23,130 nucleotides of DNA. Origin: a virus. This document shows, in pieces, positions 2,354 through 8,114 of the stretch; position 1 is the first letter of the stretch; the number at the start of each line of letters is the position of its first letter. Below the pieces are notes generated by a model. It was not told where the DNA came from, ran no database searches, and was given only the letters and a program-made list of their open reading frames with translations. The DNA is taken from positions 1 through 23,130 of the IMG/VR virus record IMGVR_UViG_3300037635_002520; one strand, 5' to 3'. A program made the position numbers and the translations under genes.

Positions 2354-3853
2354 ATGGGTGTTTTTGATTTCCTAAAAAGAGATGCAAAGCCGGTCAAACG
2401 GCGCTCATTTAAAGCCGCTCAAACCGGTCGTTTATTCTCTGATTTTGTGGCATCGACAAAATCCGCCGACGCGGAAATTCGACCGGCTTTAAAATCAATT
2501 CGCCATCGATGCCGCGATCTTGCAAGAAATGATGAATATGCGCGGCGGTTTTTGACATTGATCAAAACGAATGTGGTCGGTGATAAAGGCGTCAATTTGC
2601 AAGTGAAGGCAAAGAATGCTGATGGCACGTTTGATTCGCCAGGCAATGCAATCATCGAGAACGCATTCAAGGCGTGGACTCGAAAAGGCGTTTGCACTGT
2701 TGATGGTCGGTTTTCTTGGAAAGACGCGCAACGTTTTGCGGCGGAAGCATTGGCGAGAGATGGCGAATTGTTGGTTCGTTTGGTGACATATCCAGGAAAT
2801 CAATTCAATTTTGCGATCGAGTTTCTCGAGGTTGATTTACTCGATGAAGATCAGAATGAAGATTTGCCGAATGGCAACAAGATCCGAATGGGCATCGAGA
2901 TCGATCAATTCCATCGGCCAGTCGCTTATCATCTCTTGGCCTCTCATCCTGGAGATGCGGAATATGCGACAACTTTAGCGAAAAAGAGGACTCGGATTCC
3001 GGCGGAAAAAATGCTTCACATTTATGCACCGGATCGAGCGCAGCAAACGCGCGGGGTGCCTTGGATGGCGGCGGCGGTTGCACCTCTCAAGCAACTCAAC
3101 GGCATGAGAGAGGCGGTTTTAGTGGCCGAGAGGGTTTCGGCCTCTAAAATGGGTTTCTTTACCACACCCACCGGCGATGAGTTCGTCGGCGATGATATAG
3201 AAAATACCTACACGCCAATAATTGAGGCCGATCCAGGAACGTTTCACCAACTCGGGCCAGGACAAGATTTCAAGACGTTTGATCCATCAACCGGATCGAA
3301 TAACTTTGCCGATTTTGAAAAGGCGGTTTTGCGGGGCATCGCCTCGGCATTGGGTGTTTCTTATGCCTCGATTTCGAATGATTTGACGCAAACCTCTTAT
3401 TCCTCGATCCGCCAAGGCGCTCTCGAGGATCGTGATTTCTACAAAGTTTTGCATGATTTTATGATCGAGCATTTCGTTCAACCGATCTTTCGGGCTTGGT
3501 TGATGGCCGCAATGGACAATGGCGCGATCCCAATTCCGCCAGTTCGGTTTGATAAATTCGCCGACAATGTTGAATTTAGAGCGCGGGGTTTTGCTTGGGT
3601 TGATCCTCAACGTGAAATGAATGCGGCGGTGATTGGCTTAAATTCCGGCATTCTATCGATGCAAGATGTTGCGAACCAATATGGCCGAGACATTGAGGAT
3701 GTGATGGATCAAATCGTTCTCGAGAAACAAATGGCGAGCGAGCGCGATATTGATCTCGCATTCCAACCGTTCGGCGGCGGTCAATCTGGATATGGGCCGA
3801 TGAAATTCACGGCTCAACCGATCGAGGATGAGGAACCCACCGATGGCAACTGA
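2354..3853 (+). CDS. Portal protein, lambda gpB-like
   Basis: 499 residues, the normal size for the lambda-type portal family (Phage_portal_2). The portal forms the dodecameric ring at one capsid vertex through which terminase pumps DNA and to which the tail attaches. Recognisable features are the N-terminal basic stretch after MGVFDFLKR, the conserved segment LKSIRHRCRDLARNDEYARRFLTLI, the GDKGVNLQ strand, EFLEVDLLDED, the AEKMLHIYAPDRAQQTRGVPW region, and TSYSSIRQGALEDRDFYKVLHDF near the wing and stem. The C-terminus is glycine/glutamine rich. GAGG at 2340-2343 precedes the ATG. The 3' end overlaps the next gene's start by 11 bases, which suggests translational coupling of portal and protease-capsid synthesis. 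Assignment is confident. Confidence 0.95.
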   Translation: MGVFDFLKRDAKPVKRRSFKAAQTGRLFSDFVASTKSADAEIRPALKSIRHRCRDLARNDEYARRFLTLIKTNVVGDKGVNLQVKAKNADGTFDSPGNAIIENAFKAWTRKGVCTVDGRFSWKDAQRFAAEALARDGELLVRLVTYPGNQFNFAIEFLEVDLLDEDQNEDLPNGNKIRMGIEIDQFHRPVAYHLLASHPGDAEYATTLAKKRTRIPAEKMLHIYAPDRAQQTRGVPWMAAAVAPLKQLNGMREAVLVAERVSASKMGFFTTPTGDEFVGDDIENTYTPIIEADPGTFHQLGPGQDFKTFDPSTGSNNFADFEKAVLRGIASALGVSYASISNDLTQTSYSSIRQGALEDRDFYKVLHDFMIEHFVQPIFRAWLMAAMDNGAIPIPPVRFDKFADNVEFRARGFAWVDPQREMNAAVIGLNSGILSMQDVANQYGRDIEDVMDQIVLEKQMASERDIDLAFQPFGGGQSGYGPMKFTAQPIEDEEPTDGN

Positions 3854-6503
3854 TTTCCCGAAAAAAGGCGATGATCTTAAAATTTCTTTGAGAAACTCGA
3901 ATTATCCTCAATTCGACAGGGATTTCGCCGAGAACATCAAAGAATTTAACCCCGACATATGGGGAGCCGGTGGAAATATTCGCGGCAATGAGGCTTTCAC
4001 CCTATGGGGCCGAGCGCGTGATGGTTCCGAAACCGAGGGCGTTTTGAGTTGGATCAAAGAGCGAGAGGCATGGGCGGCGCGACATTTTGGCGATGGTGAA
4101 CAATTCGCCGATGGTGATCTCGAGCCAAACCTCTCGAATGTTGGCGGGGTTGTTGCCCAAATAAAATGGGGCGTGATCGGCAACCTCGGTGAACAGGGGA
4201 TGAAAGATGTGATCCTCGAGTTGACGAAAAAGCTCGAGGGCAAGAAAGATCGGGCGATCGAGGATTTGACAGACACGGCGCGGAAAAGCCTCGAGAATAA
4301 AGTTTCGGAACACAATGAGGAATATGGTGATGATCCAACCAAGCGAGCAACGCTTGGAATGTTGGCCGAATCCTTTTTAAGAGGTATCGGCGCATACAAG
4401 ACAAATCCAGGCTCGGTTCGGCCTGGTGTGGCATCACCGGAGCAATGGGCTTTTGCCAGAGTCAATTCTCTGCTATTCTGTTTGCGAAACGGAAGATTTC
4501 AAGGCGGCAAGCACGACACCGATCTTTTGCCGGAAGGACATCCGGAATCAACGAAGGATCAAGATGAGGAAAGAGAAATGGATGATCAGCGTCATATAAA
4601 AGGCATCACCGAAACTGATGAATCAATTTTCGTTGAGTTCGGCAAATCAACTGAAACTGAGGTCGAGGCCGATGTCGAGGTTGATGTTGAAAACGGATAC
4701 AAACCCGATGATGAGGAACGCAAGGCACCGGCAGAATTGGAGACTCGAAAGTTTTCAACTCGAATGGATGCAGAAATGGATTCTGAGGATGATCGCAGAG
4801 TTTCCATTTCAATTTCAAGTGAGGCACGGGTCGATCGCTCATTCGGCGTCGAAATCCTAGATCACAACGATCGATCAATCGATCTTTCATTCTTAAACTC
4901 GGGCAACGCACCATTGTTGCTCGATCACGATCCCGAGCGTCAAATCGGGGTTATTGAATCTGTAAATCTCGATTCCTCGGCGCGGCGTCTCCGCGCGACG
5001 GTTCGGTTCAGCAAGGGCCAACTTGGTTCCGAGGTTTACGATGACGTTCGAAGTGGTATTCGGAACAATGTTTCAATCGGGTATCAAATCGGGCGAATGG
5101 AGCGTGACGAAAAAGCGGAAGGTGGGAACACTTATCGCGTTCGTTCGTGGAAACCTTTCGAGGCAAGCATTGTTTCAATTCCGGCGGATGACTCTGTTGG
5201 CACGAATCGCAATGCTGAAATCGAGCAAACCCCAACCCCTATTCCGGCAAAAGCCGAAAGAAAGGAACCAACCATGTCCGAACAAGACATTCAAGCGGTT
5301 GAGGCGAACGTTCGCGCAGAATACGCCAAGACTGTAAATGAAATCCTAGAATTAGGTGCATCTAAAAACAAACGTGATCTTGCCGATCAAGCCATCAAAA
5401 ACGGCTTATCAGTTGAGCAATTTCGCGGAATGTTGGCAGTTGCAGCGGCAGACCAACCTTTGACCACCGCCGACGAAATCGGCATGGAAACCAAAGAGGT
5501 TCGTCGTTTCTCACTCATCAACGCAATCCGCGCGATGGCAAATCCGACAGACATCAACGCGCAACGCGCAGCACAATTTGAGTTTGAGGCTTCAGCCGAG
5601 GCACAACGCAAATTGGGTCGCGAAACACGCGGCTTGATGATTCCTGGCGATGTTTTGCGTCAATGGAACCAACGTGACATCAACACAAGCGACGATTCGG
5701 CATTGATTGCCGAGGATTTACGCACTGGTGATTTCATCGACGTTCTACGCAATGCGTCAAGCGTGATGGCAGCGGGTGCGCGTATGTTGTCCGGTCTTCA
5801 AGGTGATGTTGTTATTCCTAAGAAAACAGCCGCATCAACTGCAAACTGGATTGCCACCGAGGGCTCGGCAGCGACAGAAAGCGAGCCTACACTTGGTTCG
5901 GTTACAATGTCGATGAAAACCGTTGGCGCAACAACAGATGTCACGCGCAACATGATGCACCAATCGTCAATGGACATCGAGACATTGATCCGCGATGACC
6001 TAACACAGTCAATCGCTTCTGCGATCGATCTCGGCGCATTGGCGGGTTCTGGTTCCTCTGGTCAGCCAACAGGCATCAAGAACACATCTGGCATCAATGC
6101 ACCAACCAACTTTGCAGCGGCGAACCCAACTTTCGCCGAGGTTGTAGCGATGGAAACAGCGGTTGCGGAAGATAACGCACTCGCCGGTTCTTTGGCTTAT
6201 ATCTTGCCCGCGGGCATGTATGGCGCATTGAAAACAACAGCGGTTGACAGCGGCTCGGGTCGTTTCGTTGCTGATGGTGGTTTGATGAATGGTTACAATG
6301 CGATCGTATCCAATCAGGCAACAGCCGGTGATCTTTATTTTGGCGATTTCAGCCAACTATTGATCGGCATGTATGGTGGCCTCGAGTTGATCGTTGATCC
6401 ATACTCATCAAGCAAATCCGGCGGCGTTTCGATCACTGCATTGCAATCTTGCGATGTTGCGGTTCGTCATGCGGTTGCATTCGCCTTCAACAATGATGGT
6501 TGA
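3843..6503 (+). CDS. Prohead protease-major capsid protein fusion with extra N-terminal domain
   Basis: 886 residues in three parts. Residues 1-~230 form a domain with NYPQFDRDF, WGAGGNIRGNEAF, IKEREAWAARH and VVAQIKWGVIG, a type I recall ahead of phage protease/capsid polypeptides. An acidic linker follows. Residues ~320-460 are an HK97-type prohead protease (family U35), with candidate catalytic His362 (LLLDHD), Ser411 (NNVSIGY) and Glu440 (PFEASIVSIP). Residues 478-886 are an HK97-fold major capsid protein with helical lead (MSEQDIQAVEANVR), WIATEGSAATESEPTLG, VGATTDVTRNMM and the C-terminal DVAVRHAVAFAF. The ATG at 3843 is chosen over the one at 3828 because GAGGAA (3830-3835) sits 7 bases ahead of it. 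The protease would cut itself free and trim the capsid subunits during maturation. An internal start at 5274 could make free capsid protein. Confidence 0.9.
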   Translation: MATDFPKKGDDLKISLRNSNYPQFDRDFAENIKEFNPDIWGAGGNIRGNEAFTLWGRARDGSETEGVLSWIKEREAWAARHFGDGEQFADGDLEPNLSNVGGVVAQIKWGVIGNLGEQGMKDVILELTKKLEGKKDRAIEDLTDTARKSLENKVSEHNEEYGDDPTKRATLGMLAESFLRGIGAYKTNPGSVRPGVASPEQWAFARVNSLLFCLRNGRFQGGKHDTDLLPEGHPESTKDQDEEREMDDQRHIKGITETDESIFVEFGKSTETEVEADVEVDVENGYKPDDEERKAPAELETRKFSTRMDAEMDSEDDRRVSISISSEARVDRSFGVEILDHNDRSIDLSFLNSGNAPLLLDHDPERQIGVIESVNLDSSARRLRATVRFSKGQLGSEVYDDVRSGIRNNVSIGYQIGRMERDEKAEGGNTYRVRSWKPFEASIVSIPADDSVGTNRNAEIEQTPTPIPAKAERKEPTMSEQDIQAVEANVRAEYAKTVNEILELGASKNKRDLADQAIKNGLSVEQFRGMLAVAAADQPLTTADEIGMETKEVRRFSLINAIRAMANPTDINAQRAAQFEFEASAEAQRKLGRETRGLMIPGDVLRQWNQRDINTSDDSALIAEDLRTGDFIDVLRNASSVMAAGARMLSGLQGDVVIPKKTAASTANWIATEGSAATESEPTLGSVTMSMKTVGATTDVTRNMMHQSSMDIETLIRDDLTQSIASAIDLGALAGSGSSGQPTGIKNTSGINAPTNFAAANPTFAEVVAMETAVAEDNALAGSLAYILPAGMYGALKTTAVDSGSGRFVADGGLMNGYNAIVSNQATAGDLYFGDFSQLLIGMYGGLELIVDPYSSSKSGGVSITALQSCDVAVRHAVAFAFNNDG
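5274..6503 (+). CDS. Possible internally initiated free major capsid protein
   Basis: An in-frame ATG at 5274, preceded by AAAGGA (5261-5266) with 7-base spacing, would give a 409-residue protein equal to the capsid module of the fusion. By hand count all 19 arginine codons here are CGC or CGT, against 13 of 38 in the upstream part of the same ORF, so codon choice changes at this ATG as expected for a much more highly translated segment. Lambda uses the same trick for its scaffold Nu3 inside gene C. This is inference: the product could equally come only from proteolysis of the fusion. Confidence 0.5.
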   Translation: MSEQDIQAVEANVRAEYAKTVNEILELGASKNKRDLADQAIKNGLSVEQFRGMLAVAAADQPLTTADEIGMETKEVRRFSLINAIRAMANPTDINAQRAAQFEFEASAEAQRKLGRETRGLMIPGDVLRQWNQRDINTSDDSALIAEDLRTGDFIDVLRNASSVMAAGARMLSGLQGDVVIPKKTAASTANWIATEGSAATESEPTLGSVTMSMKTVGATTDVTRNMMHQSSMDIETLIRDDLTQSIASAIDLGALAGSGSSGQPTGIKNTSGINAPTNFAAANPTFAEVVAMETAVAEDNALAGSLAYILPAGMYGALKTTAVDSGSGRFVADGGLMNGYNAIVSNQATAGDLYFGDFSQLLIGMYGGLELIVDPYSSSKSGGVSITALQSCDVAVRHAVAFAFNNDG

Positions 6504-6514
6504 TAAATAAAACA

Positions 6515-6541
6515 CAGAGAGGGGCGGCAACGCCTCTCTCG
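6515..6541 (+). terminator. Hairpin after the capsid gene, possible terminator
   Basis: Arms AGAGA (6516-6520) and TCTCT (6535-6539) enclose an inner GGCG/CGCC stem (6523-6526 with 6531-6534) capped by a GCAA loop; GG at 6521-6522 bulges, or an alternative 7-bp register forms. There is no T-run after it, so it may be a weak terminator or an mRNA-end stabiliser that keeps capsid message above downstream message. Confidence 0.5.
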
Positions 6542-6559
6542 ATTTATTGAGGAAATCAA

Positions 6560-6775
6560 ATGCCATATTTAGTTTTGAAATCATGTTTTGCCGGTGGGGT
6601 TCGTAGAAGCGCGGGGGATGTCATTGATCTTGCCGCATCCGAAGCATCGGCATTGAAATCGATCGGTCGCGTTTCCGAGGTGGAAAAAAAAATTGAGCCT
6701 AAAACGGATCGGTCAGTGGGTTTGGCGAAATCATCAACGCCTAAACCAAAGACTCGCGCGAAAGCCAAGAAATAG
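6560..6775 (+). CDS. Small head protein with Lys/Ala-rich tail
   Basis: 71 residues. The first ~35 residues (MPYLVLKSCFAGGVRRSAGDVIDLAASEASALKSIGRV) follow the compact pattern of small phage proteins found after capsid genes, with a G-DVIDL-A-AL-G arrangement. The remainder is a disordered basic tail ending in KTRAKAKK. GAGGAAA just ahead supports the start. The position between capsid and connector genes suggests a structural, decoration or DNA-contacting role, but no function can be read directly. It resembles the 54-residue product at 7554 in layout. Confidence 0.7.
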   Translation: MPYLVLKSCFAGGVRRSAGDVIDLAASEASALKSIGRVSEVEKKIEPKTDRSVGLAKSSTPKPKTRAKAKK

Positions 6776-7721: not shown

Positions 7722-8114
7722 ATGGCTACATTTAGCGGTAGTGATGGGGTGATCTTGGTCGGAACTGACCAGGTTGCCGAAGTAAGATCGTTTTCCATCG
7801 ACGAATCCATGGACACCCTAGAAGACACGAGCATGGGTGATCAGAATCGCAGCTACAAAGCATCTTTAAAATCGTTCAGTGGTTCGGCGGATGTTTTCTT
7901 TGATGACACCGACACAAGCGGCCAAGGCGCGTTGACGGTTGGCACAAGCGCGACTCTGAACATTCAGATGGAAGGCAACACATCCGGCGATCATAAAATG
8001 AGCGGAACGGTTTTGGTCACTGGCCGGACAATCACCGCATCATTCGATGGCTTGGTTGAGGCATCAATCACATTCCAAGGCACCGGAGCGTTGACCGAGT
8101 CAACAGTTTCATAA
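7722..8114 (+). CDS. Major tail tube protein
   Basis: 130 residues, mostly beta-strand: MATFSGSDGVILVG, EVRSFSIDESMDTLEDTSMGD, SGSADVFFDD, GTLNI-type strands and a final SITFQGTGALTE. This is the pattern of small siphovirus tail tube proteins related to lambda gpV's N-terminal domain and to the TP901-type tube, which stack as hexameric rings around the tape measure. GAGGA at 7710-7714 is correctly placed. The neighbours (U-like before, G-like after) support the call strongly. It lacks the C-terminal Ig-like domain of lambda gpV. Confidence 0.85.
   Translation: MATFSGSDGVILVGTDQVAEVRSFSIDESMDTLEDTSMGDQNRSYKASLKSFSGSADVFFDDTDTSGQGALTVGTSATLNIQMEGNTSGDHKMSGTVLVTGRTITASFDGLVEASITFQGTGALTESTVS

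Follow-up and report, generated by a model that had tools for sequence, protein, structure and literature searches.

We propose that the open reading frame (ORF) at positions 3843-6503 of the window, a 23,130-base IMG/VR phage record, is a dual-product gene, and we hold with high confidence that it yields both a protease-major capsid protein (MCP) fusion and an excess of free capsid precursor, the fusion delivering the protease by co-assembly. That two proteins are made is very probable from sequence comparison, because all relatives open to inspection retain the second start. This start lies exactly at the beginning of the capsid half, so that free capsid subunits can exceed the protease-bearing form. 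Ribosomes starting at 3843 would make the fusion. Independent initiation at ATG 5274 would yield a free 409-aa HK97-type precursor (delta scaffold domain plus capsid), the counterpart of the MCP that ordinary HK97-like phages make as a protein on its own. This free precursor, in excess, would form most of the procapsid, and the minor fusion form would bring the protease into the shell, co-assembling through its own capsid part. The protease would then cut away its own linker as well as the delta domains, and the mature subunits would all be identical.

The elements of this scheme differ in strength. Use of the internal start, its near-universal conservation, a separate codon selection and the presence of the delta domain in the predicted product are strongly supported by the comparisons below. 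Co-assembly as a device for targeting the protease is suggested by analogy with lambda C/Nu3, and processing of the fusion by the protease is presumed. An excess of the free form is suggested by codon usage and by capsid stoichiometry, the R4C shell being a T=7 structure of 415 subunits (PMC10276861). The sequence-only reading had already proposed that the internal start makes surplus capsid protein and that the full-length form supplies the protease at a low ratio. The internal start finds support in its conservation and in the codon step; the low full-length ratio would follow from codon usage and capsid stoichiometry. The Shine-Dalgarno sites of the window's two starts, by contrast, are similar in strength (-6.3 kcal/mol at 3843 and -5.6 at 5274), and the equal or slightly better site of the full-length start speaks against the scheme.

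Table 1. Features of the protease-capsid region of the window.
Feature	Position	Strand	Remarks
Full-length ORF: N-terminal domain, prohead protease and HK97-type major capsid protein	3843..6503	+	886 aa
Shine-Dalgarno-like GAGGAA region before the full-length start ATG 3843	3830..3835	+	-6.3 kcal/mol
N-terminal domain, function unassigned	3843..4560	+	~235 aa
Prohead serine protease domain, Peptidase_S78	4881..5220	+	Pfam PF04586, ORF residues 350-453, E=8e-11
Protease/capsid-module linker, poorly conserved, bearing the internal ribosome binding site	5221..5273	+	
Internal Shine-Dalgarno AAAGGA	5261..5266	+	-5.6 kcal/mol with the anti-Shine-Dalgarno
Internal ATG start codon	5274..5276	+	ATG or GTG in 59/59 dereplicated fused relatives
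Nested MCP gene, predicted capsid precursor	5274..6503	+	409 aa; high-expression codon usage
Delta (scaffold-like) domain, expected to be lost at maturation	5274..5693	+	~140 aa; codon-optimised like the mature capsid
Mature HK97-fold capsid protein	5694..6500	+	Pfam PF05065 (residues 621-882); aligned to PDB 8gta, R4C
Terminator-like hairpin GAGAGGGGCGGCAACGCCTCTCTC, directly 3' of the capsid stop codon	6517..6540	+	

The organization of the locus was examined (Table 1). A single unbroken ORF holds a Peptidase S78 protease and an HK97-fold MCP (Pfam PF04586 and PF05065), and PHROG 617 spans both halves. The term capsid module is used here for the scaffold-like delta domain together with the mature capsid. 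The fusion ORF adjoins a lambda-type portal gene on its upstream side, an order that is identical in CRP-811 and others. There is an overlap between its start and the portal gene's 3' end; a further in-frame ATG, at 3828, could serve instead, and coupling to the portal gene may affect start use. Among isolates, Roseobacter phages (CRP-811, CRP-831 and others) stand closest, and in them the protease-capsid ORF is annotated as a single "major capsid protein". The N-terminal domain (3843-4560, + strand) shows 48% identity to part of an 852-aa "hypothetical protein" present in many Salinibacter phages; this domain of ~235 aa is a separate ORF in roseophage CRP-823 and is fused in its near relative CRP-831. 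At the other end of the locus, Burkholderia phage Mica likewise carries an annotated terminator right behind its capsid gene.

Conservation of the internal start was analyzed in two sets of relatives. The first set comprised 209 sequences, reduced to 183 ORFs containing both protease and capsid and then to 59 clusters at 85% identity. A start codon was present at the capsid-module boundary in all 59 clusters (54 ATG and 5 GTG), three of the GTG (L140, L146 and L105) lying 1-2 codons off the alignment column and being assigned by eye, so that a strict column count gives 56/59. GTG at a valine position was discarded as strong stand-alone evidence: it is weak, GTG making up 52% of the valine codons of those ORFs. 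The second set was obtained by a protein-profile fetch from bacterial genomes and further viral contigs. It contains 154 fused ORFs, about half of them bacterial and from many phyla, with a few repeat fetches of one contig. An in-frame ATG was found in the linker of each of the 149 ORFs whose protease end was located by motif, a weaker result than the alignment of the first set to one position, because an ATG also occurs in 87% of 70-codon stretches elsewhere; the stronger evidence is the ribosome binding site. An R4C-based search of viral contigs found nothing. The start that the sequence-only reading proposed to look for in homologues is thus kept in 59/59 clusters and 149/149 assessable later ORFs, and it appears from these comparisons to be near-universal among fused relatives.

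The strength of the ribosome binding site was then compared with a synonymous null, in which the residues are kept and their codons replaced by synonymous ones from the same ORF. In the 35 clusters of the first set classified as Shine-Dalgarno type, the mean pairing energy with the anti-Shine-Dalgarno is -6.9 kcal/mol versus -4.35 for re-coded sequences (Wilcoxon p=2e-8; p-values are optimistic, because cluster representatives share ancestry), and 697 other in-frame ATGs average -1.94 kcal/mol. The split between Shine-Dalgarno-type and cyanophage-like clusters rested in part on inspection of the sites and in part on identity, so that the cleaner figure comes from the undivided second set. There, out of sample, 112 dereplicated ORFs give -6.2 versus -4.1 (p=6e-14), and -2.3 for other ATGs; the linker ATG was taken as the first at a distance of at least 12 codons from the end of the protease, and this rule was set once the list had been seen. 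Relative to the ORF, the GG core uses each of the three frames (80, 16 and 4 cases), and the Shine-Dalgarno is written through varied residue pairs (KE, EE, ED, RS, QE and others). The use of three frames and of differing residues indicates that the conserved object is a nucleotide signal. In the window itself, ATG 5274 is in frame and begins the capsid module, preceded by AAAGGA at 5261-5266 with a 7-base spacer, exactly as noted earlier from the sequence. The window's Shine-Dalgarno is not stronger than its own synonymous null (p=0.48); it is the family that provides the significance. CRP-811 and CRP-831 combine a weak annotated full-length start (0.2 and 0.4) with a strong internal one (-9.1 and -8.2).

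Conservation of the ribosome binding site, also expected by the sequence-only reading, holds for one branch only: a site of -5 kcal/mol or better is present in 30 of the 35 Shine-Dalgarno-type clusters and is absent from the 24 cyanophage-like clusters. The latter, kin of Synechococcus phages S-LBS1 and S-CBS3, keep the ATG or GTG with no Shine-Dalgarno, and so rule out the Shine-Dalgarno as a universal rule. Their leaders are C- and A-rich, with a mean pairing of +1.4, weaker than their own synonymous null. The start region of these clusters is unusually unstructured (-5.0 kcal/mol, versus -14.9 at random positions of their own ORFs); the corresponding values for Shine-Dalgarno-type clusters are -6.5 and -12.5 kcal/mol. 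Proline-rich linkers could be behind part of this low structure. The leader is nearly G-free as well as unstructured in L087, L089 and 22 further cyanophage-like clusters, which constitute a natural set for studying Shine-Dalgarno-independent initiation.

Codon usage was analyzed on both sides of the internal start. The earlier hand counts proved exact: CGC/CGT account for 13 of 38 arginine codons before 5274 and 19 of 19 after it (Fisher p=5.7e-7). Glycine codons GGA/GGG fall from 12/42 to 1/36, and permutation of synonymous codons within the ORF, amino acids being kept, gives z=4.6 for the split at 5274. With the mature MCP as reference, the codon adaptation index is 0.531 for the N-terminal and protease half, 0.688 for the delta domain alone and 0.733 for the whole MCP module. 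Other scored genes of the window range from 0.46 to 0.62. The protease half is thus ordinary and like them, whereas the capsid module, delta part included, has a codon usage unlike that of any other scored gene. The step is located at the protease/delta boundary and not at the delta/shell boundary.

An unguided two-segment Bayesian model applied to the window gene alone preferred no split (log Bayes factor -1.4 at 5274, best value -0.8 at 5103), and the single-gene change point was discarded as uninformative for locating the step. Its exact position therefore comes from a pool of 16 dereplicated roseophage-type clusters and not from the window gene alone. Training used only codons more than 60 before or more than 150 after the internal start, each cluster was left out of its own training, and the best split was sought in the held-out junction stretch. 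For the roseophage-type group the best split is at codon -1 (score 263.9), with 263.7 for codons 0 and +1. The wider Shine-Dalgarno-type set gives +7 (385.9, versus 379.9 at 0). In the cyanophage-like set the best split lies 5-7 codons upstream of the start (394.3 at -7, versus 366.4 at 0), and the step is near the internal start, not at it. Both this offset and the missing Shine-Dalgarno of the cyanophage-like clusters count against the dual-product scheme. The codon step announced by the sequence-only reading is therefore present in the window gene, and pooled roseophage-type relatives place it at the start codon.

To characterize the internal product we used the alignment to the R4C capsid (PDB 8gta), in which the mature subunit begins ~140 residues into the capsid module. 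In R4C the particle subunit corresponds to ORF residues 362-629 and the conserved internal Met is residue 189, so that the internal product carries the delta domain. By its sequence it would be a capsid precursor that bears a delta domain, like HK97 gp5, and the delta stretch would, by analogy with HK97, act as a scaffold. Where protease and MCP are encoded separately, in two distant relatives, the MCP is 437 and 439 aa long, the same unit as the internal product. The fusion and free forms would mature to one identical chain, so that mature-particle structures cannot distinguish them; the words "protease" and "fusion" are absent from the R4C structure paper.

Several other explanations were considered. 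Transcription from an internal promoter, or mRNA processing, might be the main source of extra capsid, in place of initiation within the long mRNA. Either way the internal ribosome binding site would serve, and the terminator-like hairpin behind the capsid stop makes a short capsid mRNA conceivable; we nevertheless judge this source unlikely, as a scan of 3700-6700 for sigma-70-like promoters found none on the + strand, with two matches on the minus strand for 2.2 expected by chance. It is very improbable, to our mind, that the fusion alone is made, capsid being released by proteolytic cleavage of the linker and the ATG and Shine-Dalgarno being fossils of formerly separate genes. Every fusion molecule does contain the protease, and fusion is a stable state: L123 and L128 are the only loci with intact upstream DNA in which the genes are separate. 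But a fossil start would decay, yet the start codon persists in relatives that share 35-40% identity and have unrelated linkers, and the Shine-Dalgarno is held in differing frames and residues. The codon step would moreover be unexplained, as both halves would be translated equally. A fossil start after gene fusion was thus rejected on the basis of conservation across deep divergence.

The codon step could also be unrelated to internal initiation, reflecting either accuracy selection, stronger on the structurally constrained capsid, or a module acquired by recent recombination. This would suit the abundance and conservation of capsid proteins and the mosaic make-up of phage genomes. Against it, the fusion is common to relatives at 30-40% identity and is therefore old. 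The delta domain, poorly conserved and disposable, comes close to the shell in codon optimisation, and the conserved protease does not. The pooled change point, at most one codon from the start codon in the roseophage-type group, is a further argument against it, and we give this explanation slightly less credit still than the fossil start. Least credible is a peptide signal, such as a protease cleavage site, whose conserved Met and KE-like residues mimic a start site: K/R-E-x-x-M-S/T-E/D is frequent in the roseophage group, but flanking residues vary by group (SEDA|MSDP, EDSR|MLEK, PIRS|MEPT), five clusters have GTG (Val), and the shared trait is a start codon accompanied by one of two features, a Shine-Dalgarno or an unstructured leader.

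The dual-product organization recalls several known systems. The lambda C protease and Nu3 scaffold are nested in-frame genes. In lambda the protease is N-terminal and the scaffold C-terminal, an in-frame internal start gives surplus scaffold, and the protease enters the procapsid as a scaffold fusion; the likeness claimed is one of logic only. The same type of nesting is seen in the window: ATG 5274 is in frame inside the protease ORF, the predicted products share their C-terminus, and the internal start lies ~140 codons ahead of the mature shell, where the delta domain begins. Unlike lambda C/Nu3, delta and shell of the window phage form one chain, so that the internal product would be the MCP and the protease would be tethered to a shell subunit. 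The likeness to HK97 gp4 and gp5 concerns the prohead protease, the delta scaffold domain and the HK97-fold shell, found in matching order, and the predicted free 409-aa MCP has the layout of gp5; HK97 uses two separate genes, whereas the window has one ORF with a nested start. Retroviral Gag/Gag-Pol offers an analogy only, with an excess structural protein and an enzyme carried as a minor fusion. There, unlike in the window, the order is opposite, the ratio is set by frameshifting or readthrough, and the proteins are unrelated.

Direct relatives with the same fusion and internal start are found in PHROG 617 ("major head protein") and PHROG 4523 ("major head and protease protein"), which include roseophage CRP-811, Jilinvirus ep3, Synechococcus S-CBS3, R4C and Foxunavirus. 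The public records examined give one product for them, and the extra N-terminal domain belongs to the window phage. Fusions of protease and capsid are also reported in actinophages (PMC5513430, PMC9671004). In Arthrobacter, Microbacterium, Gordonia, Curtobacterium and Rhodococcus phages, an ATG with a Shine-Dalgarno-like site follows the protease in 11 of the 11 fusions examined (-3.9 to -10.8 kcal/mol); the Met was chosen by reading translations, without a null model, which makes this a lead rather than a test. These fusions have little or no sequence similarity to the PHROG 617-type family of the window and possibly arose independently. Their start is not noted in their records or in the literature examined.

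Protease-capsid fusion as such is already known (PMC5513430, PMC9671004, PMC9753647, PMC12760985, PMC6606914), and a scaffold-protease fusion is mentioned in PMC5513430. We found no description of an internal start of the protease-capsid fusion in the open-access literature searched; subscription journals may hold prior art. The fusion and the nested scaffold genes of lambda are thus known, and what appears new relative to the open-access literature searched is the internal start of the fusion, broadly distributed. We lean towards a more general reading, to be taken as a whole, in which internal initiation would be the rule for protease-capsid fusions of tailed phages: the fusion would target the protease and the nested start would set its dose. 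Separate fusion lineages in proteobacterial, cyanobacterial and actinobacterial phages would all have retained or gained a second start where the scaffold begins. This would achieve the Gag/Gag-Pol logic by another route, the unstructured leader replacing the Shine-Dalgarno in the cyanophage-like branch.

In many phage and prophage records the gene appears as a single "major capsid protein" of 600-900 aa. Such annotations would lack the true major capsid precursor if ribosomes do use the internal start, and expressing the complete ORF for particle or structural studies might then yield a mixture of products. The dual-product scheme, if true, also answers how a phage with a shell-fused protease avoids hundreds of proteases per shell. 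Two minor observations concern neighbouring genes. The putative tail tube gene of the window (7722-8114, + strand), of the same size as in CRP-811, is without capsid-type codon bias despite its presumably high expression. In a Haematospirillum contig (L279:5675-6764), a second and shorter capsid-like ORF of 363 aa, without protease, is located immediately downstream of the protease-MCP fusion.
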